Virus record (IMG/VR): IMGVR_UViG_3300005529_000070
Span: 1-37,576 of that record
Length of the DNA: 37,576 nt
From: a virus
Direction: 5' to 3' (one strand)
Below are positions 5,107 to 32,062 of this stretch, piece after piece. How positions within the stretch are numbered: position 1 is the first letter of the stretch; every line of letters starts with the position of its first letter. Both the position numbers and the translations under genes were made by a program. A model generated the notes under the pieces. The model saw nothing but the letters and a program-made list of their open reading frames with translations, had not been told where the DNA came from and made no database searches.

Positions 5107-6744
5107 CTATTGCTGCTGGCTCATCCACTGAGCTAGTGCTGCAGACGAATACGGAGCCAGAGCCCCAATAGACTGCGCCGCTGCAGCTTGACCGGGGTAG
5201 TCGCCGAGCATGTATCTTGTTCCTGGGCGGCTGTAAAGCATCGGCGCGAGAGCAAGTCCAGTCAGATAATGCGGGCCTCCGAAATATTCGTTAGCAGCTC
5301 CAGTGCTGCCGCCCAAAGCCAGCATCGCAAGCATTGCCCTCCCAGGAGTCCCTGAGTCTGGGTAACGATCGCCGAGCACAGAAACCGCTGGGTCGGATAG
5401 CTCCTGCATATTGGCTCGACCCTTGGCGAATTGGCCCTTACGCACAGACTTATCTTCCTGCCTCACAGCAGTCTGTAGCTGACCTGGAGTGAAGACGCCT
5501 TCCTTGCCTGCCGCCTCGGCCCGCTGAAGCCTGACGATCTTGCTCCAGCGTCTATTGGCTTCGTCCAGCATCGCCGCCGCTTCTGGTGTCGACGCACCTT
5601 TCTGCATCTGTTGCCTGAAAGCCGTCTGAGCGTCTTGTAAAGCCCTGCCCATTTCGCGCTCAGACGTTGAAGAACTGGCCCTCAAGGCTGCTGCTTTCGC
5701 TCCGAGCTCGGCGTCGATCTTCTTTGCCATCTCGCCAGGTATCTGGCTTCCTTGAACGTTGTCCCCAACGGTGCTGTTGATGAAGTTGCGCACCGTTCCT
5801 CTCTGTTCTGAGGACATCATGTATTTCGTGTTATCGGCAAAAGACTCCAGATGCGGGACTAAAGATTCGTCAGCCTTGACGGTGATATTGGAGAGAGCCT
5901 TGTCGTACATTTGTCCAACGCTCGACTCGGCCTGCCTCAACCCCTCTCTGCCTATTGCGGTGACTTCTGGCGCGGCTTCCTTGATGGCTGCGCTGTTGAG
6001 TTCCCTGACCGCTCTACCTTGTGCGTTTTTGATGAGATCGCCGATACCGGGAATGCTGGTAAGACGCTCTTCCACAGAGCGACCGAATTTGCCAAGTGCC
6101 TGTCCAACTGTCGGAACGATGTCGGCCGACATTAGTTTCTGCACCATTGGGGATTGCACGATCGGCCGCGCTACTCTCGCCAGTCCGCTAGCAGCGGCGC
6201 TACCAGCTACGCCACCCGCGGCCCCAGCCCCGGTATTCTCGCCAGTAGCCGCCGCCGTTGTGCCGCCAATTACAGCCCCAGAGAAAAGCTTTCCTAGCAA
6301 TGGGATTTTCGCAATACCTGAAACTACCGGAGCAGCCAATGCGGCCTCACCTATGGGCGTCGTGGCGAGACTTGCCGTAATGGCTCCAGCTTGAGCCGGT
6401 CGCGATGTCTCGAGCAATGCATCGTTAGCAGCCTTAGCGGCTTGCTCTTGTGGAGTGAGCGTTCCGCCGAGAGCCGTCTTTAACTTCATCGCCGCCGCAT
6501 CCCACAACGCCTTAGCCCCGACTGCTTCATGCGTGAACGGACTGAAGTCTCCAGCCACGTCCTTGACCGCTTGGGGCAAACCTTCGACCCCAATGGGATA
6601 GGGCTTGACTGGAGCCAGTTCCCTTTTCGTGCTCTGAAGCTGGGTGAGCGCCGAGGTGACTGGATCTGGTGAGCTCGTTTGTGGAGTTGGTGACTGTCCT
6701 CCAGTTTGAAGTAACTGGAGAGCGCTTTGGATCGGGTCTGCCAT
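5107..6744 (-). CDS. Internal virion / DNA-ejection protein
   Basis: A 545-residue protein interpreted as an internal virion protein delivered with the DNA. It has a Gln/Pro/Ser-rich start, a Gly/Ala-rich stretch with glycine-zipper character (about 120-195: several hydrophobic segments rich in A, G and T) suited to membrane insertion, a long Lys/Glu/Ala helical central region (about 240-420), and a second Ala-rich hydrophobic C-terminus. Nothing resembles a lytic transglycosylase. It is last in a row of four such genes following the tail hub, as in P22-like ejection modules. Family not recognised. Confidence 0.65.
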   Translation of the reverse strand: MADPIQSALQLLQTGGQSPTPQTSSPDPVTSALTQLQSTKRELAPVKPYPIGVEGLPQAVKDVAGDFSPFTHEAVGAKALWDAAAMKLKTALGGTLTPQEQAAKAANDALLETSRPAQAGAITASLATTPIGEAALAAPVVSGIAKIPLLGKLFSGAVIGGTTAAATGENTGAGAAGGVAGSAAASGLARVARPIVQSPMVQKLMSADIVPTVGQALGKFGRSVEERLTSIPGIGDLIKNAQGRAVRELNSAAIKEAAPEVTAIGREGLRQAESSVGQMYDKALSNITVKADESLVPHLESFADNTKYMMSSEQRGTVRNFINSTVGDNVQGSQIPGEMAKKIDAELGAKAAALRASSSTSEREMGRALQDAQTAFRQQMQKGASTPEAAAMLDEANRRWSKIVRLQRAEAAGKEGVFTPGQLQTAVRQEDKSVRKGQFAKGRANMQELSDPAVSVLGDRYPDSGTPGRAMLAMLALGGSTGAANEYFGGPHYLTGLALAPMLYSRPGTRYMLGDYPGQAAAAQSIGALAPYSSAALAQWMSQQQ

Positions 6745-11894: not shown

Positions 11895-12505
11895 CCCGTG
11901 GTAATAGAGAGAGGTTGCGCACCGGAAAGAAACTCATCGTCGTTTTCCTTTTGAATCAAGGTAAACAACTGAGAGAACTTTCCTTCCCAGATCGGGATTC
12001 TTTTGTCGTCTTTTAAATAAGGAGCGGCTTCTAAAAGAGCTCCGTACAACCAAAGACCCGGATAGGTCGTGAAGACGCTGTTTGTAGAAGTCGAGAGGGA
12101 CGGAAACCGGTTGTAATAAACAAGTTGAACCGTGTAATTCGTATCTGGGTAGGGTCCGAAGATAAAGTTCGACCCTTCTCGCGCGATATATTTCGGTGTG
12201 TTATCCGAAGCCCGATATGGATACTTCTCATAGATCCACTCAGCGCTCTTACGATCAAGATTCGTATAGGGAGTAGTCGAGCTGATATAGGAGTCTTTGA
12301 GCTCGATGTAGTTCGCGGGAACGGCAATGGTTCCCGAGGCTATGGTGGATGCCATTGCGGTTTCCATAGCCCTGTGTCTCAGATCGTTGTTGATCCTGTT
12401 ATCGGCCAATGTAATGAAATCAGCAATGGCCGAAGTAAGATCAGCGCGGTGCAGAAAGTCAGCTACACTTGACTTTAAGCCGTTGTAGGTTCCGTCTAAA
12501 GCCAT
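11891..12505 (-). CDS. SU10-type head-tail adaptor
   Basis: A 204-residue protein with the features of phage adaptors that join the portal to the tail: an N-terminal helical segment (VADFLHRADLTSAIADFITLADNRINNDLRHRAME split over residues 14-48), a beta strand preceded by PANYIELKDSY, then helices near GALLEAAPYLKDD. This is the pattern of SU10-like/P22 gp4-like adaptors. GGAG lies seven bases before the ATG within an A-rich leader. It follows the DegT aminotransferase, overlapping its end by 47 bases. Confidence 0.75.
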   Translation of the reverse strand: MALDGTYNGLKSSVADFLHRADLTSAIADFITLADNRINNDLRHRAMETAMASTIASGTIAVPANYIELKDSYISSTTPYTNLDRKSAEWIYEKYPYRASDNTPKYIAREGSNFIFGPYPDTNYTVQLVYYNRFPSLSTSTNSVFTTYPGLWLYGALLEAAPYLKDDKRIPIWEGKFSQLFTLIQKENDDEFLSGAQPLSITTG

Positions 12506-13487
12506 CGACCAGCTCCGTTATTTTTGTTAGTTGGTCTGGTGTAACGTGCGGCCCGGTCGGAAGCGCCAGATGATTCATCCAGATTTCTTCCGACACTTTG
12601 TATTTACCTTTGCCATACACACGAAACGCAGGAGACAGGTGTAGAGGCGTGAAGATCGGCCTCGTGTCTACTCCGTGTACCTTTAAGTGCCTTGCGAGTC
12701 CTTGAGGGTCTTCTGTCTCAGCGCAGAACAGCCATTTCCCTTTTCCCGGCAGGCTTTCTGAAAATCTCTTAGCATTAGCGAGACGCGCTCCGAGCAGTTC
12801 GTCAAAGCGCTCGAGCTGGGCAAGACCGACAGCGGCTTGCATGTTGGAAAGTCTGTAATTGAGCCCTGGTACGATATTTCGGTAGTCTGAGTCGAAACCA
12901 CCGTCCCGCCACTCTTTAGCGTTACCGTAATCACCGCAGAGCATCCCTCCTTCGCCTGTGGTAATTGGCTTATTTCCGTAAAACGAGAAGCAAGCCATCT
13001 TTCCGCGGATCGGTACCATGCCGATTGCTTCGCAGGAGTCCTCAATTACTGGTATCCCAAACTGCGTGAAAGCACCTGCATCCTCTCCATAGAGATGGGT
13101 GACCATGATGGCTCTGGTGCGCCGTGTAAGAACTCCGAAGAGCCGGTTTCGATCCAGTCCCCAAGTCTCCCGGTGAACGTCAACGAGTATCGGTTTCGCT
13201 CCCACTGCGAGTACGACGGAAGCGGTAGCTCCGAAAGTAAGGTCTGGAACCACGACCTCATCCCCCGGCCCGATCCCGAGAGAAAGTAGGGCAAGGTGGA
13301 GCGCACCTGTGCCACTAGAGGTCGCAAGACTGGGAACTCCGAATTTCTGACTGAAGGCTTTCTCAAACTCTCCCTCGAATCGTCCGGCGTGGGTTACATA
13401 TCCTGTCTGGATGCACTCGGTTAAATACTTGAGCTCATTCCCCTCGAGGCTCGGCCTCGCCAAAGGGATCAGCGATGATTCCGTCAC
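12459..13487 (-). CDS. DegT/DnrJ/EryC1/StrS sugar aminotransferase
   Basis: A 342-residue PLP enzyme of the family that transfers an amino group to nucleotide-linked keto-sugars. Motifs: SSGTGALHLAL (58-68, phosphate binding), IEDSCEA (148-154, Asp to PLP nitrogen), and FSFYGNKPITTGEGG (167-181) with catalytic Lys173. The length is slightly short of the usual 370 but all key residues are present. The start is GTG. It implies that an amino-sugar is made for use by the neighbouring glycosyltransferases, although no nucleotide-sugar dehydratase is present, so host precursors must be used. Confidence 0.9.
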   Translation of the reverse strand: MTESSLIPLARPSLEGNELKYLTECIQTGYVTHAGRFEGEFEKAFSQKFGVPSLATSSGTGALHLALLSLGIGPGDEVVVPDLTFGATASVVLAVGAKPILVDVHRETWGLDRNRLFGVLTRRTRAIMVTHLYGEDAGAFTQFGIPVIEDSCEAIGMVPIRGKMACFSFYGNKPITTGEGGMLCGDYGNAKEWRDGGFDSDYRNIVPGLNYRLSNMQAAVGLAQLERFDELLGARLANAKRFSESLPGKGKWLFCAETEDPQGLARHLKVHGVDTRPIFTPLHLSPAFRVYGKGKYKVSEEIWMNHLALPTGPHVTPDQLTKITELVDGFRRNLQRLKVKCS

Positions 13488-13511
13488 TTATAAATGCCAG
13501 TAGAAGCTGGT

Positions 13512-14330
13512 CTAGGCCCTCATAAGGTGACGCCAGGCGTGTCCTTCTCTCATCTCCGCCGGGGTCCATTGTGTCCAAGCAAGGTTCGCTGCCCACTGCT
13601 TTCTGTCCGGGCACTTTGGTTCCTCTAAGTCTGAAAGGCTTTTATTGGCTAGATCCCAAACCATAGAGCCTTCGTCAAAAGCAAATACAGGTTTGCCGTA
13701 GATCAAAGCCTCCACCGCTGAATTGCTGTTGAATGTCACTACACAGTGAGCATCCTTCAGGTCTTCAAGAAGTGGCGCTTTGGAGTAACCACATCCCCTG
13801 ATTGGGTCTATCGGTGCTAAAGGATGAGGTCTGAAGACCACCGGCCTGTTGGTTATAACGGCTAGCCTTTGGGCCGTCTCCTGACACCAGACAACGTGGT
13901 AACTACCTTCCACGCTTGCATCCCAGGGAACCTGACCACAGAGGATGATCTTATTCCCCGGAGAGTAGGGCCTCATCTGGGTTTTCAGCTTCTCCCAGCG
14001 CTCAGGCCCCATGCTCTTGTTACGGAAGTCTGCTCTTCCGTTCAACCCATTAAAGCCGGCAGCATAGTGGTGATGTTCCCCGTCACCCCGGTTGACGTAA
14101 CCCGTCTCTAGAACGATTACATCCAGGTTTTTTTCCCTCTGCTGCCGAAAGACTTTTCCTCGAGGCCAGGATTTCCTGACCTTGGATTTATAGACCCCGA
14201 AGATGACTGCTATATCTGAAGGTTCGTATTGGAATCCCTCGATCAGTTTCTTTTCTTCCGGGATTCCGTCATAGAAAGCTTTTAATACTCGGTCGTGGAC
14301 CGGATCGCCGCTTAGATATACGTTAATCAT
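13512..14330 (-). CDS. Capsule-biosynthesis-type / GT-B-like protein
   Basis: A 272-residue protein resembling capsular polysaccharide export/transferase proteins of the KpsC/KpsS kind. Motifs: FRPHPLAP (166-173) and FNSNSAVEALIYGKPVFAFDEGS (200-222), the latter being the C-terminal nucleotide-sugar loop of GT-B folds. It overlaps the upstream methyltransferase by ATGA and is part of the glycan island. Whether it transfers Kdo or another sugar cannot be read from the sequence. Confidence 0.7.
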   Translation of the reverse strand: MINVYLSGDPVHDRVLKAFYDGIPEEKKLIEGFQYEPSDIAVIFGVYKSKVRKSWPRGKVFRQQREKNLDVIVLETGYVNRGDGEHHHYAAGFNGLNGRADFRNKSMGPERWEKLKTQMRPYSPGNKIILCGQVPWDASVEGSYHVVWCQETAQRLAVITNRPVVFRPHPLAPIDPIRGCGYSKAPLLEDLKDAHCVVTFNSNSAVEALIYGKPVFAFDEGSMVWDLANKSLSDLEEPKCPDRKQWAANLAWTQWTPAEMREGHAWRHLMRA

Positions 14331-14902
14331 TCGGCGATGACAATCAAAAACATCCCATCACTGCCGGCGTGGATAGCGCCTCCCTTGTCTTTCTGGCAAA
14401 AGCGTTCGGTTACTCGGAACCCGCAACTTTTAAGTAAGCCGTCGAACTCGTTCGGTCTGTAATGCCTGAAGTGCGGGCTGTCGTCTCTCTCGAAATGCTT
14501 CGCTAGAAACGGGTATCTTTCTTCGTTCGGGACTGAGGCTATTAACGTCCCGATGCACGCTTTCCTGAACGCTTGGAGCGCTGGCTTCGGGTCTTGGAGG
14601 TGCTCGATTGTCTCCAGGGAGACGACCGTCTCAAAACGTCCGTTCCAAGGCTCATCCTCGATTCGTCCCTGAATAAAACACGGCCCCTGGAAATGTTCCT
14701 CCGCCCAGTGAATCGCTTGAGCGCTCTGGTCAATGCCCACAACCAACTGCGCATTCTCAAGAAGAAGTTTCGAGCCATATCCGCACCCGCAGGCAGCATC
14801 TAGAACCCTCCCGCTCGCATACTTGGCTGCGAGCTCGTAGCGTCTAACGTGATCCGGCCTCGCCCCTCTTACCGTCTTAGTCCATTGTCGGCTGGCGTCC
14901 AC
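14327..14902 (-). CDS. Class I SAM methyltransferase
   Basis: A 191-residue methyltransferase with motif I VLDAACGCGYGS (33-44), an acidic ribose-binding motif VVGIDQS (54-60) and SLETIEHL (95-102) typical of the small-molecule (Methyltransf_11/23) subgroup. A C-terminal substrate region contains HFRHYRPNEF. GTG starts directly after the glycosyltransferase stop (TAG-GTG). Likely methylates a sugar or lipid-linked sugar in the island's pathway. Confidence 0.85.
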   Translation of the reverse strand: MDASRQWTKTVRGARPDHVRRYELAAKYASGRVLDAACGCGYGSKLLLENAQLVVGIDQSAQAIHWAEEHFQGPCFIQGRIEDEPWNGRFETVVSLETIEHLQDPKPALQAFRKACIGTLIASVPNEERYPFLAKHFERDDSPHFRHYRPNEFDGLLKSCGFRVTERFCQKDKGGAIHAGSDGMFLIVIAE

Positions 14903-15595
14903 CTACTTTGCGATTAAGTCGCCCTCTCTGAGTTGTCTTGTTTCTTTCCTGTCACCCTTAAAGTGGTGCATCACCGTGCCGGGCAGGGAATTCTCAAAGG
15001 GATGCATCGTGCCTTTAGGAACATGCTTCGCGAGGTTCACGAACTCGCCTTCATATCCATCTTTGGACGCCATGTATCTGATGGCGTCAAAGGCTATGCA
15101 GTCGTGCCACCACTGCTGTGTGAAGATAGTCCCAACAATGAAGACATGGACGTAATCTCTTAGGAATCTTTTCGCTATTGGGTGATTCGCGTTAAACCCG
15201 ATAAATCCTGACTCGGTGAAGTACCACCCGTCTCGACCTAAATAACAATTGAACTTGTCATCCGGGAGACACGTATCTAGGAAACTCTCGGGGACGTGCT
15301 TATAAGTCTCCGAGTCGGCGTCCATCCAAAAGACCTTCCCCCCGTACTGTCTGCAGGCGTGAACCTGCATGAAGGTTTTTCTTCCCATCCTTGCGTCGAA
15401 GTTAATGTCGTAATTTGAACCAACGACTCCGTGCATAATCGGAAAGCGCAGGCTGGATAAGTAGTCCTGCAGAAACTCGACTTCCTCAATCGGCCTCCAG
15501 GAAATACCCGGAAGCATCTCGAAAGCCGAATCGTCTCCCTCGTAGTAGACGGTCAATCTAATGCTTGGGGGCCAGAACTTCAGCCACGACTCCAC
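14903..15595 (-). CDS. GT-A-type glycosyltransferase, N-terminus upstream of start
   Basis: The frame from the first canonical codon (GTG 15595) gives 230 residues with the metal/nucleotide motif FWMDADS (89-95) and a conserved-looking C-terminal region. But coherent sequence continues upstream in the same open frame: KLPNVITSFSASG and YQKYGKRFVESW precede the GTG and form the first beta strand and helix of a GT-A fold. That frame is open back to a TAA at 15731-15733 with no ATG, GTG or TTG. A TGATG overlap on the preceding stop is followed at once by TAA in that frame, so a 2-base insertion may have broken the start, or a near-cognate codon (ATC 15685 or CTG 15709) is used. Confidence 0.75.
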   Translation of the reverse strand: MESWLKFWPPSIRLTVYYEGDDSAFEMLPGISWRPIEEVEFLQDYLSSLRFPIMHGVVGSNYDINFDARMGRKTFMQVHACRQYGGKVFWMDADSETYKHVPESFLDTCLPDDKFNCYLGRDGWYFTESGFIGFNANHPIAKRFLRDYVHVFIVGTIFTQQWWHDCIAFDAIRYMASKDGYEGEFVNLAKHVPKGTMHPFENSLPGTVMHHFKGDRKETRQLREGDLIAK

Positions 15596-15692
15596 GAAGC
15601 GCTTTCCATACTTCTGGTACCCGGAAGCAGAAAAGCTCGTGATGACGTTCGGGAGTTTCTTCGGAGGCTTCTTCGCTTGTTCGATACTTACA

Positions 15693-17060
15693 TCACCGAC
15701 GATGAGCAGGCCACTTCTCCTGTAAGGCAGTTAGCATTGGAATGATCGGCCACTGTTTGTTTTTCTGGCGCCAGAGCTTCACGGAGCTAGCCCAAGGGAA
15801 AGACTCGCCTTCAGCAAGGTGTCTCCACATAGGCATTTCTGGAACCAGGCACCAGCATTCCTTACCAATGGCTCCAGCCGCGTCTACTACAGCGGTCGTC
15901 ACGCTCACCACGATGTCTAACTGAGAAAGCAATGCAATCGTCTGGTCATAGTCCCAGAAACGGCTGCCCCATTCCCAGTCATGGATCTTCACGCCGTACT
16001 TTTCTTCCGCTCCTTTAACCCCGTCGGCGTCTTTGTATTGAAGACTCACCCATTGGGCATCAATACCCTTGAACAAGGGAGCAAAGGTATCCAGGGTCAC
16101 AGAACGCCTGTAGGTCCCGGTCTTTGGGATACCACCTGTCCACGCTATTCCTATCTTTGGCTTCTTCTCATTGAGAAGCACTCCCCATTGGGCTGACATA
16201 TCGGGTCGTGGGATGAGATAGGGCTTCCCGTGAAAGTCAGAGTCTTTATTCCTATAGAACTTTGGTAACTCTCCCAAAGCCACTCGAGCGTCGAACGACT
16301 GACTGTGCGCCCAGGTCCTGGCCTCTTCAGGTTTGTACCTGGTTCCGTACACCATAGCCGTCGGGAAAGACCTCTGGAAGAGAGGCGCTAGTCTCTTATC
16401 AACCTCCAGAGTCACCGTCTTGCAGTCGCGGATCAGGTCGGGCAGACAGGAAGCGAAGGAAATCTCGTCGCCCAAACCCTGTTCTCCGTAACACACGACG
16501 TTAAGACCTTTGGTGCCGTCCCATCGGGACTCGTTGCCGTACTTCATCTCCTTCCGGTTCTTCTCGGTCCCCAGATTGGCCTGGTAGTCCCTCCAGCCTT
16601 CTCGCCACCTTCTTGTGGCTAGATAGGCCATTCCCCTGTTGACTCTCGCATCCACCAGTTCGGGATTTTCGGCAAGAGCTCTATTGGATAGAGCAATACA
16701 TTGCTCGAAGTCACCACGGTGAAGGGCTGACATCGACAGTCCCTCAAGAGCATTCGGAAAGTCCGGTTTTAGCTTTACCGCTTTCCTGAAGTGCTCATCC
16801 GCCAGCTCATCTTTCTGCACTTCATGGAAGCATTTCCCCATGTTGTGCCAGGCAGCGGCGTTAATAGGTCTTATATCCGCCGATCGCTTGATGATGTTGT
16901 AGGCGAGCCCGTAGGAGCCCTCCTGCATCAAGGCGTATCCAAGCATGAAGAGGGCTTCACCGTCGTCGAAGTCCTCATCCAACCTTTTGAAGAGTCTTTT
17001 AGCTGCCTCGGGGTAGTTTTTTTCGTCTAGGTATTTTTTTGCTTCTTTTAAGAGGCTAAT
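15693..17060 (-). CDS. TPR-domain glycosyltransferase (GT41/GT9-like), ATT start
   Basis: A protein of about 455 residues if started at ATT 17060 (429 from TTG 16982). The first 165 residues form TPR-like helical pairs; then comes a GT-B-type catalytic part with YGEQGLGDEISFASCLPDL (split around residue 193), PKIGIAWTGG and a C-terminal VSVTTAVVDAAGAIG loop, as in bacterial O-GlcNAc-transferase-like enzymes. ATT is chosen because GGAGGG lies four bases upstream and the added residues LLKEAKKYLDEKNYPEAAKRL complete the first TPR helix; TTG 16982 would cut it. Likely glycosylates protein or lipid-linked acceptors. Confidence 0.8.
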   Translation of the reverse strand: MSLLKEAKKYLDEKNYPEAAKRLFKRLDEDFDDGEALFMLGYALMQEGSYGLAYNIIKRSADIRPINAAAWHNMGKCFHEVQKDELADEHFRKAVKLKPDFPNALEGLSMSALHRGDFEQCIALSNRALAENPELVDARVNRGMAYLATRRWREGWRDYQANLGTEKNRKEMKYGNESRWDGTKGLNVVCYGEQGLGDEISFASCLPDLIRDCKTVTLEVDKRLAPLFQRSFPTAMVYGTRYKPEEARTWAHSQSFDARVALGELPKFYRNKDSDFHGKPYLIPRPDMSAQWGVLLNEKKPKIGIAWTGGIPKTGTYRRSVTLDTFAPLFKGIDAQWVSLQYKDADGVKGAEEKYGVKIHDWEWGSRFWDYDQTIALLSQLDIVVSVTTAVVDAAGAIGKECWCLVPEMPMWRHLAEGESFPWASSVKLWRQKNKQWPIIPMLTALQEKWPAHRR

Positions 17061-21955: not shown

Positions 21956-22407
21956 TACAGTCCAAGCAGAAGCACCTCTATATCTTCTTCGTCATCACTT
22001 TCATTCAGGAAGTCGTAGATCGGCATTAGGTCTACGGCTGTCAGTTCGATTTCCCGTCTTAGCTCTGAAGCTCGCTCTCTCAGAGAGTCAAGGTTGGCCA
22101 GAACCCCTAAAGGAACCTTCTGGACCGAGACCTTCTTCTCTACGGTCTCGATTTTCTTTTCGATCTTCTTGAGCTTTGTCTGATCCCTCTTTAACTTGAG
22201 CTCAAGCTTTACTTTTTCGACTTCCGCTTCTTTGGGAGACTTCCAGGCGAGGAAGGTGATTAACCCGCCCGCCCCTCCTCTTGCTGCCGGAGGCGGAATT
22301 ACGACCGCAGCCGCCCCGTTCCCATAACCCAGAGTTACTAAGTGGTTCTGATCTCCTATGAAAACCCCAAGCCCGTTGGTGACTACTGCACCAGCGGACC
22401 CGATCAT
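21955..22407 (-). CDS. Beta-start, coiled-coil structural protein
   Basis: A 150-residue protein. The N-terminus is a repetitive Gly/Val/Ala region (GSAGAVVTNGLGVFIGDQN, PPPAARGGAGGLITFLAW), the middle a Lys/Glu coiled coil (about 57-120), the end acidic (ESDDEEDIE). It starts inside the end of the repeat-fibre gene (ATGA), suggesting joint assembly with it. Confidence 0.6.
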   Translation of the reverse strand: MIGSAGAVVTNGLGVFIGDQNHLVTLGYGNGAAAVVIPPPAARGGAGGLITFLAWKSPKEAEVEKVKLELKLKRDQTKLKKIEKKIETVEKKVSVQKVPLGVLANLDSLRERASELRREIELTAVDLMPIYDFLNESDDEEDIEVLLLGL

Positions 22408-23393
22408 GTCGCTCTACTTACGCTCGACGGAGTAGTGCTATCCAGGGTTAGGGTTGTAGCTACAGCCGAGTGATCCAGTTTCTTAATGGTCATGGTTACA
22501 CCGGAGACTGTTTTCTCGGTGTGATGACCCAACAGTTCGTAAAGGATCTGAGCAGGGGTCCCAGCAGCCCCATTGGCCCTGTAGGACTCGGAGATGGTGC
22601 TTACGAAGTCTCCAGTCGTCCCGCCGACGTTTCCGACCACTGAACCAACAGACCCGCCCACGTTTCCGGTGACGCTCGAGGCTAGAACGCTTGCAAGGAC
22701 TGACCCAACGGAACCGCCGACATTGCCAATGACCGAAGCGACCGAGCCGCCCACGTTCCCTACAACGCTTCCGACCGACCCGCCGACGTTACCGGTAACA
22801 CTGTTAGCCAGAACCGAAGTCGCGACGGAGTTAACCGAACCCCCGACGTTACCCACGACACTTCCGACTGAGCCTCCGACGTTCCCGGAGACTGAGGCTA
22901 CCGAACCACCGACATTCCCAGTGACGCTCCCGACAGCTCCCCCGACGTTTCCAACCACCGATCCTACGGAGCCGCCGACGTTACCTGTTACAGACCCCAC
23001 CGCCCCGCCGACATTTCCAGTCACTGAGGAAACAGTGATGTCTAACTGAACCTCTTTCATCGCAGGCGCCACGCTAAGAGTCGTGGTGTTGGCGTAGAGG
23101 GTCAGGATTACGGTGTCTACACCAGCGGCGGTTGAGTAAGCCGCGTCCGGAACGTCTACTCTGTAAAGGCCTGGTGCGCCTGTTCCATCTACCTCGATAG
23201 CCCCGCCGCTCGACCACGCGACTGAAGTGTTAGAAAGGGCCGAGCAGTTGGTGGTGACGTTTCCTTGTCTAGTTCTGGTGTAACCAATCAATAGCTGATT
23301 GATAGTTACACCAGTTTTAGCCGTCCCCGCCGTTTTCTCAACGAGGTTGAAATACTCAGTCCTGCTGGTAGTGCCTGACTTGACTGAGCTCAT
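22404..23393 (-). CDS. Fibre-like protein with 11-residue GNVGG repeats
   Basis: A 329-residue protein. The first 120 residues form a beta-rich attachment domain (GVTINQLLIGYTR, GLYRVDVPDAAY). Residues 123-261 comprise eleven copies of an 11-residue repeat SVxGNVGGxVx, broken twice by 9-residue units (SVATSVLAN and SVLASVLAS). Such Gly-Asn-Val repeats likely fold as a trimeric beta-fibre. A short C-terminal knob follows (EILYELLGHHTE and LTLDSTTPS region). Probably a head- or neck-attached fibre, given its place among head genes. Confidence 0.75.
   Translation of the reverse strand: MSSVKSGTTSRTEYFNLVEKTAGTAKTGVTINQLLIGYTRTRQGNVTTNCSALSNTSVAWSSGGAIEVDGTGAPGLYRVDVPDAAYSTAAGVDTVILTLYANTTTLSVAPAMKEVQLDITVSSVTGNVGGAVGSVTGNVGGSVGSVVGNVGGAVGSVTGNVGGSVASVSGNVGGSVGSVVGNVGGSVNSVATSVLANSVTGNVGGSVGSVVGNVGGSVASVIGNVGGSVGSVLASVLASSVTGNVGGSVGSVVGNVGGTTGDFVSTISESYRANGAAGTPAQILYELLGHHTEKTVSGVTMTIKKLDHSAVATTLTLDSTTPSSVSRAT
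22611..23027 (-). repeat. Eleven tandem 33-bp coding repeats
   Basis: Encodes residues 123-261 of the fibre-like protein: units of SV-x-GNVGG-x-V-x, with two 27-bp interruptions after the sixth and ninth units. Synonymous positions vary between units, so the array is old or selected at protein level. Confidence 0.9.
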
Positions 23394-26859: not shown

Positions 26860-27144
26860 TTATGGGTCTAGCTCGACGGTCAGAAGCAGCTTGTCTGAAG
26901 TCTCTCTACTGGAGATGATTCTGTTGGCTTCATAAGGCGCGAAGCCGCTTTCTCTCAAGAGAAGAAGAACGGTAGCCTTCCCGACTTCGATTTCTTTCGT
27001 CTTGGGACTCATCGTTTTAGACTGCGGCCAACAGGAAATGCACCAACCGCCCTCCACGTTTTGATACATGGATGGCTTACCGCATTTGATACACGGGACC
27101 ATCTCTATCGGCGGTTTAGACGATTCCTGTGGCTGGGTAGGCAA
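26860..27144 (-). CDS. Zinc-ribbon protein after terminase
   Basis: A 94-residue protein: CIKC (18-21) and CISC (35-38) make a zinc ribbon, followed by a helix/strand domain ending KLLLTVELDP. The start is uncertain: TTG 27144 overlaps the terminase end by 29 bases; ATG 27102 lacks a ribosome-binding site but would keep the ribbon. Function unknown, perhaps helping packaging by position. Confidence 0.65.
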   Translation of the reverse strand: MPTQPQESSKPPIEMVPCIKCGKPSMYQNVEGGWCISCWPQSKTMSPKTKEIEVGKATVLLLLRESGFAPYEANRIISSRETSDKLLLTVELDP

Positions 27145-28525
27145 TGGGTTCCGACCACTCGGTCGAGTTGTTCATTGTTGTGCTGTACAAAGCCGCGTAT
27201 TGAAGAGCGTCTTGAAGGTGCGAGTAGTCGTTCTTGTCTGGAACGTCCTTGAATCTTTCCTGTCCCACCACTTGAAGTCTTCGGTATTGATAGCGACCAT
27301 TAAAACCCCGTCTAAGCATGTCGCACTTGGGGTCAACCATCAGACAGGGTTTCCCGTCTGTCATTCGGGTTAGGTATTTAGCTACCGCTTCTCTTCTTCC
27401 GACAAAAGCATTGGTAGAAGCCGGGGAACAAGCAATCCCCTCCTCCGCTAGTTCCATAAAACAAGACTTCTCATCGTTCTGGGACTTCGCCATCCCAGCG
27501 GGATCTCCAACTGCTTGAAAACTCATCCCCGGATAGTTCATTGCTAAATGAGGTCTCACTACGTCTCTAGCGAACTGTCTGATCCCCATGTCTTTCGCGA
27601 AGAGCTCGTCAACTACTAACAACTGACCTCGAGGACTTACCTGGCAAATCGCACAAGCAGGGGTTAATCCATAGTCGAAACCAAGTAATAGAGGAAGACC
27701 AGGATCAGCCACCACAGGACGGCAGTGAATGTCATCGGCCCACTCCGGGTAAACGGGTCTTCCGTCTGCGATGGTTCCGTAGTTACCTAGAAGGAAGACC
27801 TTGATCCACTCTCTAGCTTTACCCGGAACCTGCCTTAAATAGTATTCATGACCCCCTGGTAAATTCTTTACGTTCTCCGCGTTTGGGTTAGGCGCATAAG
27901 CGCCATCTCTCTCGACAAGTCCGCCGGGCTGCCTGAAGAACTCCCACTCTTTAGGCTTTTCCCTCTCTGCGAGCCGAAAGTACCAGTGGTCATCGTCCGG
28001 CGGGTTGGTATCGAGCAGAACTCCGGTCCACGTCGGGCCACCCTGGCGCGCAGGAGGAAAACGCCCGACCCGCTGCGTGACCATATCGAAAACGGCCTTA
28101 GGGAGTTCGCCCGCTTCATTGATCCACGCTCCAGTCAATTCCAAAGACTTAAGTTTCCCAATCTCCTCGGGTCTATCCACCGGGAAAAAGAAGACCTCCA
28201 TCTCCATCTGGGTCCCATCTTTTAACTTTCCACTGATGGTCCCCGTAATCGGAGCGTCCCACTTCATCACACACCCAGCAGCCCATTCCTGCCACGTTTT
28301 AATCGTGGTGGACTTCAGCTCCGGATAAGTGTTTCTGATAATGGCCCAGCGGGTCCTACGAACCCCCAGAAACGCTTTCTGTTCTTGAGCCCTACTCAGT
28401 ATCTCGATACAGCAAGCGGTGCTCTTGGAACTTCCTACGGGGCCCATCAAGCCTCTAACGAAGGCGTTACTGGCGTGAAACCTCTCCACCGTAGGTCCGG
28501 CGGGGATGTAGCTGATGGAGTCCAC
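27116..28525 (-). CDS. Terminase large subunit
   Basis: A 469-residue packaging ATPase-nuclease. Walker A MGPVGSSKST (27-36), Walker B with catalytic Glu in LTGAWINEAGE (130-140), coupling motif LLDTNP (170-175), and nuclease Asp residues in GFDYG (D284), GDPAG (D341) and SHLQDALQYA (D439). GTG starts by overlapping the upstream stop (TAGTG) with no obvious ribosome-binding site, so coupling is likely. The packaging strategy cannot be read directly. Confidence 0.95.
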   Translation of the reverse strand: MDSISYIPAGPTVERFHASNAFVRGLMGPVGSSKSTACCIEILSRAQEQKAFLGVRRTRWAIIRNTYPELKSTTIKTWQEWAAGCVMKWDAPITGTISGKLKDGTQMEMEVFFFPVDRPEEIGKLKSLELTGAWINEAGELPKAVFDMVTQRVGRFPPARQGGPTWTGVLLDTNPPDDDHWYFRLAEREKPKEWEFFRQPGGLVERDGAYAPNPNAENVKNLPGGHEYYLRQVPGKAREWIKVFLLGNYGTIADGRPVYPEWADDIHCRPVVADPGLPLLLGFDYGLTPACAICQVSPRGQLLVVDELFAKDMGIRQFARDVVRPHLAMNYPGMSFQAVGDPAGMAKSQNDEKSCFMELAEEGIACSPASTNAFVGRREAVAKYLTRMTDGKPCLMVDPKCDMLRRGFNGRYQYRRLQVVGQERFKDVPDKNDYSHLQDALQYAALYSTTMNNSTEWSEPIAYPATGIV

Positions 28526-29170: not shown

Positions 29171-29611
29171 TTACTCTGGCTTATTGCTCTGCGTCACATC
29201 CTCTGACTCGATATCCACCGCTGTTTGCTGCCCTGCGTCACGCCTCAGATTGATGTTGATCTGCACCGCTTGGGCTACGTTTGGCACGTCCTGGCCGTAG
29301 ATCCGACGACACACACGCTCGAGCTCCCACTGAGCCGATCTGAGCTGTTCGCGCGCACGTGTCAAGTCAAGCGCGTTGTCGGCCTTATCCATCAAGTCTT
29401 CGGCTCGCTCTTTCCTTGTTAGAGCCTTAGTGAGTTGAGCGTCACGCCATTGCTCCTCAGCGTGTTTGAGCATGAAGAGAGAGAGGGCTGCTCTGGTTAC
29501 GCCATAGCTCTTGGCGATCTGTTCACCAGACTCTTCGGCTAAATAACGTTCTAGGATGTCTTTGGGGTCTACGTCTTTAAGAGGGGCTAGTTGTCCGCCT
29601 TTACTGAGCAT
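29171..29611 (-). CDS. Terminase small subunit
   Basis: A 146-residue DNA-recognition subunit. The N-terminal helix-turn-helix (ILERYLAEESGEQIAKSYGVTRAALSLFM) fits known small terminases, followed by a helical oligomerisation region (RKERAEDLMDKADNALDLTRAREQLRSAQWELERV). It precedes the large subunit by four small genes instead of directly. No ribosome-binding site is evident for ATG 29611. Confidence 0.85.
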   Translation of the reverse strand: MLSKGGQLAPLKDVDPKDILERYLAEESGEQIAKSYGVTRAALSLFMLKHAEEQWRDAQLTKALTRKERAEDLMDKADNALDLTRAREQLRSAQWELERVCRRIYGQDVPNVAQAVQININLRRDAGQQTAVDIESEDVTQSNKPE

Positions 29612-30061: not shown

Positions 30062-30182
30062 ATTTATCTATCTCAAAGAGGATCGAGGCTTTCCAGAAAT
30101 TTAGGTGCCACTCTGGGGTCTGATTCTGATTCCAGGAGAGCTTGGTCTCCCGGATGATTTGTTTAACTTGGTCGAGATCCAA
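29991..30182 (-). CDS. Small charged protein (TTG start)
   Basis: A 63-residue protein ([45 protein letters not shown]). The TTG overlaps the glycosyltransferase end by 20 bases, and the tail overlaps the DUF6496-like gene. The first 45 residues look like a genuine helical protein; the rest is Lys/Ser/His-rich. Unknown function. Confidence 0.5.
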
Positions 30183-30825
30183 GACGCTTTAATACCGCTT
30201 CCTTATGCACACTCGCTCCCATTATTTCGTCCCAGGTCACCGTAGACATGGATGCTCTAGCTTCAGCGGTCCACTCAGCGCTGTAGGGCGAGTCTTTGGT
30301 CTCAGGGAAACAGGGAATACCTTGGGTGAAATGGACTAATTTGGGATTGGCGATCGGCTCGTCATAACCCACGAGTAAATTCCATTCAGCCGGTAGCTCA
30401 CCTATTGAGCTAGCCCATTTAAGGGTCTGTGGCTCTCCAGTCTCGATAAACTCAGGCGTCAAAACTCTGCATTTGTCGTTGTTAAATACCATCAGGCTTG
30501 GCCACTCGAACCTGAGCTTGTTCTTGACTACGCTGACCGCGTGCTCGTAGTGGTCGCCCGCGTAATCTCGGAGTTCATAGACATCGCCAAGGCAAAGCAT
30601 GTCAGCGTCCATGAAGACCGACCAGCCGTGGTCAAAATCGCAAAGGTATGGCGGTAAATAGCGGGTGAACGTGAAATCAGAAAGTCCGCGGCGCTTCACT
30701 GGAAGCTGGTCTATGACCAATGGCGTGATGCTTACCGGCCGGCGAGCTCTCCGGTAAATAGAGTGCATCAGAACCTGCACAGCAACGGGCTGGCGCTTGT
30801 CTACACCAAGGAAGACTCTTAGCGT
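30163..30825 (-). CDS. GT8-like glycosyltransferase, ACG start suspected
   Basis: A glycosyltransferase of the GT8/glycogenin-like kind. It has the metal-binding DxD in WSVFMDADMLCLGDV (middle of the protein) and a late YDEPIANPKLVHFTQGIP. From the first canonical codon (GTG 30780) it is 205 residues, but the preceding in-frame sequence LRVFLGVDKRQPVAV is the first beta strand of the fold and lies upstream of any ATG, GTG or TTG. ACG 30825 sits four bases after GAGGT and is the best start, giving 220 residues. Unlike the other transferases it is separated from the island and is the first gene of the late transcript. Confidence 0.75.
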   Translation of the reverse strand, partial: TLRVFLGVDKRQPVAVQVLMHSIYRRARRPVSITPLVIDQLPVKRRGLSDFTFTRYLPPYLCDFDHGWSVFMDADMLCLGDVYELRDYAGDHYEHAVSVVKNKLRFEWPSLMVFNNDKCRVLTPEFIETGEPQTLKWASSIGELPAEWNLLVGYDEPIANPKLVHFTQGIPCFPETKDSPYSAEWTAEARASMSTVTWDEIMGASVHKEAVLKRLGSRPS

Positions 30826-31004
30826 ATTTACCTCGAATAGGTCAGCCCTAACTCGGAGCGCGCCGACGAGCTCGTTATTTAGTGGGCGTGGTCGGGACCG
30901 GCGGGCTGATTTTCTGGAATTCTGGATTTACGAGGGAAAAACTACCCCTCGCATTTGGACTTATCGGCTTTCGCCTACGATGGACGAATTGTTACCGCGT
31001 TAGA
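30826..31004 (-). other. Long late leader with hairpin
   Basis: About 180 bases of leader between the candidate late promoter and the GT8-like gene, with no supported gene. It contains a hairpin (CGAGGG at 30931-30936 pairing with CCCTCG at 30946-30951) and a TTCTGG direct repeat near 30911-30924. This fits the place where Q-dependent leader control would act, but no canonical terminator is present. Confidence 0.45.
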
Positions 31005-31034
31005 CTTGTACCACTAGATCTAGTTCCAAGTCAA
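31005..31034 (-). promoter_or_regulatory. Candidate late promoter with palindrome in spacer
   Basis: Leftward strand: -35 TTGACT (31034-31029), 18-base spacer, extended -10 TGG-TACAAG (-10 hexamer 31010-31005). The palindrome ACTAGATCTAGT (31013-31024), with outer arms GACTTG/CAAGTC, fills the spacer. It overlaps the stop region of the Q-like gene and would start RNA near 30998. Confidence 0.6.
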
Positions 31035-31465
31035 GCGTGTAGCTCAGTATTTAGTAGCAACGCCCAGACTCTGATTCTGGCGATGTCCAAAGCCTCACCG
31101 TATTCCTTCCAATTTAATCTTCTGCCGCTGTATTTCTTGATGGCCTTCAAGATGCGCCATCTCTCAAGACCCGGAAAGCAGTAGTGATAGGTGATGGACC
31201 ATTTATAAACCTTGCCCACAGAATCGCTACCGAGCCCCACAATCGCCGCATTCGTTCGGACGGCTCTGAGTATGTCTATCTCTGGTAGAGGCGCTGTAGG
31301 CGCTCCTGGATCGCCCCAGCCGCTATCCCAAGCACCAGGAGCATGGGGGTTGAAGTTTCCCTCGAGTGATTTACAGCGGGCGTAAATCTGCCGGTCCTTA
31401 AAAAAACGACTCCACTCGATTAACCTGTCCTCGAGCTCAGGTGGAACCAGATCCAGGCGTTTCAT
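31031..31465 (-). CDS. Q-like antitermination candidate
   Basis: A 144-residue protein located after NinG and directly before the terminase-side genes, exactly where lambdoid Q genes lie. Features: N-terminal helix with LEDRLIEWSRFFKDRQIYARCKSLEG (two short halves), basic/aromatic C-terminus ITYHYCFPGLERWRILKAIKKYSG then LNWKEYGEALDIARIRVW, resembling a helix-turn-helix. I recall related phage proteins with the start pattern LEDRLIEW and the label Q-like but cannot confirm the family. A promoter overlaps its end. Confidence 0.5.
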   Translation of the reverse strand: MKRLDLVPPELEDRLIEWSRFFKDRQIYARCKSLEGNFNPHAPGAWDSGWGDPGAPTAPLPEIDILRAVRTNAAIVGLGSDSVGKVYKWSITYHYCFPGLERWRILKAIKKYSGRRLNWKEYGEALDIARIRVWALLLNTELHA

Positions 31466-31601
31466 TTGGCTTTTGTTGTTGGGATTTAATCAGCCGGCGC
31501 TTTTCGTAGTAGGCCTTCCCGCGCTCGCTTTCTCGCCACTTTTTATGAGCGCGAGCCTGAGATTCTTTTCGCTTTTGAATCCTTGCGGACAGATCATCCA
31601 T
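31437..31601 (-). CDS. Small basic protein
   Basis: A 54-residue, strongly basic protein (IQKRKESQARAHKKWRESER, AYYEKRRLIKSQQQK). The ATG overlaps the NinG stop (ATGGATGA) and the tail overlaps the Q-like start. The pattern fits a nucleic-acid-binding helix or a phage small protein of unknown role. Confidence 0.65.
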   Translation of the reverse strand: MDDLSARIQKRKESQARAHKKWRESERGKAYYEKRRLIKSQQQKPNETPGSGST

Positions 31602-31995
31602 TTAGTCCCTCCAATTTCTGCCTGTAGGCGGCGATTAAATCCTCTACGTCGGAACGGGTGTATTTAACAATCTCACGGGCGCCGGCGAGCTTTCGTTCAA
31701 ACCATTCGAGCCCGTTTTCCTTGATGAGCTTCGCAGCGAAGACCTCATAACGTCCGCCCATAAAGACGTTATCGCGGCGGCACTGAGGGCGAATGATGTC
31801 CACGTCAAAGAGCACAGCACCATGTCGTCCAGGGATGGCGTGACCAGCCTGCGCTTCGTATTTCCAGTGAATCGGTGCTCCGCATGTATAACAACTGACG
31901 AAGCCCCCTTCATCGGCGTCTTTTCGTCTCACATACTCGCTTATCAGCTTCCAAAGCTTCTTCTTCAGGCTTCCGAGCGTCTGCTTTTTCGCCAT
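31594..31995 (-). CDS. ninG: NinG-like recombination protein
   Basis: A 133-residue NinG (Rap) homologue. Zinc motif CYTC (35-38), then AGHAIPGRHG (50-59) and IRPQCRRDN (68-76), the conserved His/Cys nuclease-like core. Lambda NinG aids recombination by targeting branched DNA. ATG 31995 follows GGAAG; an in-frame TTG 15 bases earlier is less likely. Lambda-like position before the Q-like gene supports both calls. Confidence 0.85.
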   Translation of the reverse strand: MAKKQTLGSLKKKLWKLISEYVRRKDADEGGFVSCYTCGAPIHWKYEAQAGHAIPGRHGAVLFDVDIIRPQCRRDNVFMGGRYEVFAAKLIKENGLEWFERKLAGAREIVKYTRSDVEDLIAAYRQKLEGLNG

Positions 31996-32062
31996 TCTTT
32001 TTCTTCCCAAAGGCCATTTGCCATTTACGGCCGGTTTTGTTGCCCTTCTTGAATTTGCCCAT
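31910..32062 (-). CDS. Basic mini-protein overlapping NinG
   Basis: A 50-residue Lys/Arg-rich frame (MGKFKKGNKTGRKWQMAFGKKKNGEK). It begins by TAATG overlap with the preceding gene and shares about 86 bases with NinG in another frame. The coupling supports translation; the overlap makes it uncertain. Confidence 0.5.
   Translation of the reverse strand: MGKFKKGNKTGRKWQMAFGKKKNGEKADARKPEEEALEADKRVCETKRRR

Follow-up and report, generated by a model that had tools for sequence, protein, structure and literature searches.

A probable Q-type late-gene switch with a Q21-like predicted protein in a virus contig

Among antiterminators that act by loading at a paused promoter, the Q proteins are the textbook example. 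Here we ask whether such a switch controls the late genes of the virus in IMG/VR record IMGVR_UViG_3300005529_000070, a contig of 37,576 bases, the whole of which is called the window below. The original prediction proposed a new Q-type late switch, in which the protein would bind a palindrome lying in the late promoter. The answer developed here is that the locus is likely to be a Q-type late-gene switch whose protein belongs to a new, Q21-like family: the Q-like protein and the lambda-like promoter are supported, and the palindrome as the Q site is not.

The locus reads on the minus strand, a point absent from the original prediction, in the order NinG, a 54-codon open reading frame, the 144-codon Q-like gene, promoter, leader, a GT8-like gene, a small terminase-like gene (TerS-like) and the large terminase gene, TerL (Table 1). 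NinG, the Q-like gene and a promoter overlapping its end are present as predicted, with the 54-residue frame intervening after NinG, and the terminase-side genes are found beyond the leader. The label of podophage comes solely from the similarity of the terminase to those of podophages such as BcepC6B. In BcepC6B, an annotated transcriptional repressor gene sits ahead of the terminase genes.

Table 1. Features of the putative late switch and its surroundings, in window coordinates.
Feature	Position	Strand	Basis or comment
NinG	31594..32010	-	PF05766, E 3.8e-13
54-codon ORF between NinG and the Q-like gene	31437..31601	-	without family match
Q-like antiterminator gene, 144 aa	31031..31465	-	predicted fold Q21-like
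-35 element TTGACT of the putative late promoter	31029..31034	-	contains the TGA stop of the Q-like gene
12-bp palindrome ACTAGATCTAGT	31013..31024		inside the 18-bp spacer
-10 element TACAAG, preceded by TGG (extended -10)	31005..31010	-	expected start near 30998
CAATTCG, putative pause site close to the promoter (about +8 to +14)	30985..30991	-	also in L003, L023, L102
Leader hairpin 1, GGC-GAAA-GCC	30966..30975	-	folding
Leader hairpin 2, 9-bp stem without T tract	about 30930..30952	-	folding
GT8-like gene, first late gene, role unassigned	30163..30780	-	a homologue follows the Q-like gene in L003
Small terminase-like gene (TerS-like)	29171..29611	-	phrog_1482, E 2.4e-4
Large terminase gene TerL	27116..28525	-	phrog_2, E 3e-22; podophage-like terminase

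Is the 144-residue protein a Q protein? No Pfam, PHROG or NCBIfam model matched it, and no solved structure matched it in sequence. Phage Q proteins fall into three named families, PF06530, PF03589 and PF06323 (PMC7171158); the window protein has no match to the model of the first (Q21) and no sequence match to the second (lambda Q) or the third (Q82). Homologues were sought by scanning viral contigs and in loci fetched via portal and terminase. Five were found on virus contigs (L002, L003, L023, L102 and L103), with 40-57% identity to the window protein, and none in 50,697 phage records or in the bacterial genomes searched. All six members of the family, the window included, lie upstream of terminase genes.

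Fifty further terminase-related virus records added just L103 and a distant relative, L028, whose link to the family lies in its N-terminal part (family profile E 1.6e-4; hhalign P 1.6e-5 over 45 columns). The L028 protein matches phrog_79, “anti-termination protein Q-like” (E 4.9e-5), and reaches E 0.0083 against PF06530, below the curated cut-off. Its gene (L028:953-1399) is a divergent Q-like gene flanked by the small and the large terminase gene; a promoter-like TTGACA-17-TACTGT lies near its end. A direct profile link to 21Q failed: compared by hhalign with ten 21Q-type proteins, the family profile gave a non-significant P of 0.056, or 0.085 when L028 was included. Matches in BFVD (A0A8S5QZW8, E 2.3e-5, and others) are uncharacterised phage proteins.

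A homologue of the GT8-like protein comes after the Q-like gene in L003, and a GT-like gene is found there in L103 too. The conserved N-terminus of the GT8-like protein, VNTLRVFLGVDKRQPVAVQV, reaches upstream of the first ATG, GTG or TTG, at 30780 (window 30780-30927, minus strand); a rare start or decay of the gene is possible, because no ordinary in-frame start codon occurs upstream of that point. Judged from translations, the minus strand of the window carries a sugar- or glycan-modification-like gene run between head-tail genes (12459-16982), with aminotransferase-like, methyltransferase-like, glycosyltransferase-like and TPR proteins. In L023, right after TerL (L023:9906-12140), genes resembling a sugar kinase, a phosphoheptose isomerase and the halves of a transketolase would form metabolic cargo in the late operon. 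Another minus-strand gene of the window, at 22404-23393, contains many VGSVxGNVGGSV repeats and possibly encodes a fibre or decoration protein.

Structure prediction gives a more specific answer. Two AlphaFold models, of the window protein and of the L003 protein, were built from the six-sequence alignment and are confident in the C-terminal half. The window model has helices at 9-31, 65-76, 82-96, 102-113 and 119-143, of which the last four end in a helix-turn-helix, and a strongly conserved loop at about 25-56 that is predicted with low confidence or as disordered. Foldseek alone found no significant match for the window model in the PDB. A second look with VIA-align, limited to the PDB chains that Foldseek ranked highest, gave as the best solved match of both models the same chain, 6p18_Q from the Q21 loading complex, with Z 9.0, 121 and 109 residues and an rmsd of 4.2; other Q21 chains and sigma region 4 came next, and AlpA reached Z 5.2 with the first model.

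A Z of 9.0 is modest for a helical protein; the match carries weight because the same specific answer was obtained twice, over the whole length, and in the expected genomic place. In Q21, an N-terminal helix packs on a sigma-region-4-like domain, and a loop refolds to form a ring inside the RNA exit channel (PMC6606751). The predicted models have the same arrangement, at modest Z: an N-terminal helix on a sigma-region-4-like domain with a loop between, and the flexible conserved loop after helix 1 of the window model stands at the position of the ring-forming segment in Q21. That the protein is Q-like, as originally proposed, is borne out by the top rank of Q21 for two models, by the match of L028 to a Q-like PHROG, and by a gene order and promoter placement found in authentic Q phages. 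We therefore describe it as Q21-like in its predicted fold and not as a demonstrated member of PF06530, PF03589 or PF06323, since no family matches it and the profile comparison with 21Q-type proteins is not significant.

We now turn to the promoter. In the window it consists of TTGACT, an 18-bp spacer and TACAAG, on the minus strand; the -35 element includes the TGA stop codon, so that the predicted overlap with the end of the gene is indeed found. A standard promoter scan does not call it, because its -10 element lacks the final T. Matches of equal grade (-35 of at least 5/6, overall 9/12) number 27 on both strands of the window, and perfect 12-bp palindromes number 7, compared with a mean of 8.8 in shuffled sequences. 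Judged from the window alone, promoter and palindrome are weak; with both counts at chance level, the evidence must come from relatives.

A TTGAC[AT] lies at most 40 nt from the end of the gene in the window, L003 and L002, and 208-292 nt further downstream in L023 and L102, in L023 beyond a small open reading frame; the match to the -35 element in L103 is weaker than in the other members. The sequences thus contain what is expected of the Q class, a late promoter just downstream of the gene and directed into the late genes, although this promoter is further off in L023 and L102. The window, L002 and L102 have weak -10 elements, and the L003 promoter, TTGACA-16-TAAAAT, is near consensus (11/12).

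What these promoters share lies past the start. Downstream of four of the six genes (window, L003, L023 and L102), the motif CAATTCG lies at 43-45 nt from the start of the -35 element. Counted from the first T of that element, the first A of AATTCG stands at 44 in the window, 43 in L003, 44 in L023 and 45 in L102; in lambda pR' (L104), AATTCG is at 46, a placement that the window promoter reproduces. By the known start of the lambda transcript, the C and G of the lambda motif are +16 and +17, the published sigma-dependent pause. In 20,000 shuffle trials, a 7-mer common to the three independent leaders, placed within 6 nt, came up twice. Over 987 kb of fetched DNA, both strands, TTGACW-N36-40-AATTCG is found only at the four family promoters and at lambda pR', with 0.69 expected, a comparison that is not a clean probability and partly counts shared descent, because the set is enriched in relatives; lambda, for its part, is not a close relative. 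The two other members have variants at shifted distances, AACTCG in L002 and AATCCG in L103.

Counted by eye, the window and L003 also have a G at the tenth position upstream of the pause C, as has the core pause consensus G-10 Y-1 G+1 (PMC4604602). Q promoters are known to carry a -10-like element (PMC6606751, PMC9371919), which in lambda pR' lies at +1 to +6 (PMC4604602). A search by eye for such an element upstream of the pause gave no consistent hexamer across the family.

How does this combination compare with known systems? A first likeness is to Q21. In 21Q-type phages, namely Proteus phage Pm34 (L111), ST64T, Enterobacter MII_001 and Salmonella SE10, TTGACA or TTGACT overlaps the Q stop codon or lies just past it. 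As in the window, the -35 element lies over the stop codon in Pm34, ST64T and MII_001, and Pm34 has both TTGACT over TGA and the order NinG, small ORF, Q. To these are added the full-length predicted fold, a gene following nin-type genes, and a putative binding interval in the spacer. The differences are that the window protein has no significant sequence similarity to Q21, that the TGAGCA direct repeat is absent from the window promoter, where the palindrome occupies the interval, that the window has a lambda-like AATTCG and not the 21-type initial transcribed sequence, and that its late operon opens with terminase genes, whereas the Q21 type opens with lysis genes.

The promoter itself resembles lambda pR' in its TTGACT, its spacer of 17-18 and its AATTCG at a distance of 44-46 nt from the start of the -35 element, and NinG lies upstream, in the nin region, in both. 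However, lambda Q (PF03589) has no sequence similarity to the window protein and has a different fold outside the helix-turn-helix (PMC6606751, PMC7171158), and the -10-like AACGAT at +1 to +6 of pR' is not clearly present in the window, where AACGCG takes its position. AlpA of Pseudomonas aeruginosa provides a third comparison: an antiterminator with a Q21-like fold, without sequence homology to Q21, and with its site in the spacer (PMC9371919), which matches the window model at the Z of 5.2 given above. It differs in being a chromosomal cell-death regulator, in having a single ABE, GGGACG, and in giving a weaker structural match than Q21.

Because a Q21-like predicted fold and an adjoining lambda-like late promoter occur together, the late genes are very probably under a Q mechanism. 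From the conserved gene family in its conserved position, the predicted fold, and the conserved geometry of promoter and pause, we infer a transcription start, a pause, DNA binding, ring formation and antitermination, as follows. Transcription by host RNA polymerase would begin near 30998, from the promoter into which the Q-like gene runs; once 13-14 nt have been made, the holoenzyme would pause at CAATTCG. The Q-like protein, of 144 residues, would bind the promoter DNA between -35 and -10 through its C-terminal helix-turn-helix, load onto the paused polymerase and, like Q21, make the RNA exit channel narrower; the polymerase would in this way ignore later terminators and transcribe the terminase, head, tail and lysis genes.

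The same protein could instead be a sigma-region-4-like activator that binds at the late promoter and raises initiation there, without antitermination. The C-terminal half alone does match sigma region 4, with Z 5.6-7.9, and the weak -10 elements noted in three of the promoters speak for this reading. However, the match to Q21 is better than that to sigma region 4 and is full-length, including the N-terminal helix; the conserved pause-like CAATTCG past the start would be superfluous for an activator of initiation; and the L003 promoter is already near consensus. We consider an activator unlikely.

The leader, predicted at about 180 bases with a hairpin, was found to measure about 155-220 nt and to contain two hairpins. 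A 57-nt segment with the hairpins folds better than shuffled sequences (z -3.5), and the whole 139-nt window leader no better (z 0.01). Two hairpins follow the pause site in five of the six leaders, the first of them short, with loops GAAA, GCAA or CUCG; all five relatives have a short hairpin like hairpin 1 in the corresponding position. No tR' terminator was called in the window leader, and L103 has a terminator-like site at 6500-6520. Hairpin 2 is possibly a degenerate tR' or part of a two-hairpin leader; taken together, the hairpins could be a tR' without the canonical T tract, a stabiliser, or a put-like element. In L023, a tRNA-Met (CAT) gene lies in the late leader (L023:6745-6814), past the putative Q-type promoter and ahead of the terminase genes.

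Given the precedent of HK022 put, an RNA antiterminator (PMC9378689), the two-hairpin leader could act on its own, the protein doing something else. The recurrence of the two hairpins, and two pairs with compensatory changes in the first stem, are in its favour. However, the covariation is weak (a term of 0.08 from five sequences), hairpin sequences and spacing vary, and Rfam, which may hold no put model, gave no match to the leader at gathering score. Such a leader would also leave the Q21 fold and the promoter geometry unexplained, and we regard this reading as very improbable.

There remains the palindrome. Its exact sequence occurs once in the window (31024-31013), and the claim of a 12-bp palindrome between -35 and -10 is correct: it is a perfect dyad in the 18-bp spacer. 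As a statistical signal it is ruled out by the counts given above, and it is notable only by its place, at about 7/4096 for an 18-bp spacer, before any correction for the choice of this site by the original prediction. It spans positions 10-21 counted from the -35 element, an interval in which the direct repeats of the phage 21 type begin at 10 and 18; in Salmonella SE10, TGAGCA is repeated at these two distances (10 and 18 nt) from the start of the -35 element. The interval is thus the right one for a Q-binding element, but a comparison with relatives, suggested as a check together with the claim, shows that the palindrome is not conserved and is missing from that interval in all five. It is ruled out as a conserved Q site: L002, L003 and L102 have no counterpart there, the L103 spacer contains a different inverted repeat, ACACAC..GTGTGT, and L023 has a near copy, ACTATATCTAGT, but displaced onto the -10 element. 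The pentamer GGAAC is common to the window, L023 and L102, at differing offsets. Published Q elements are direct repeats for 21Q (PMC6606751) or a single site for AlpA (PMC9371919); for this reason, and for its lack of conservation, the palindrome is treated here as only a candidate for the Q-binding site of this promoter.

A palindrome may also suggest an operator, at which a dimeric repressor, such as the P22-Cro-like protein encoded by the virus at 34669-34442, would shut the late promoter. The perfect dyad is in fact flanked by the arms of an outer inverted repeat (31037-31027 and 31008-30998), whose centre is 1 bp off that of the inner palindrome. However, no similar site exists near the early control region, the sole other match within 2 mismatches being 6659-6670; promoters of the lambda pR' type are constitutive; and the lack of conservation counts here too, making an operator slightly less probable still than a leader acting on its own. 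Least probable of all is chance, an ordinary phage gene next to an accidental promoter match: the counts in the window are at chance level, but a family of six with a fixed place and fold, four of them sharing the promoter and pause geometry, argues against it.

A Q-type switch of this kind may point to a fourth phage Q family, beyond Q21, lambda Q and Q82, with the Q21 fold, a lambda-type pause and at least one member reading a dyad palindrome between -35 and -10; as a whole, this is a doubtful conjecture. If the dyad reading were true, the palindrome would seat two Q molecules head to head, not in tandem. A further family with the Q21 fold and unrelated sequence would show that the mechanism is defined by the fold and not by a sequence family, which AlpA already hints at, and a lambda-like AATTCG at an equal distance from the -35 element would point to a pause module common to Q types. 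The geometry of TTGACW and AATTCG is a simple signature by which the late promoters of uncultured phages can be sought in sequence.
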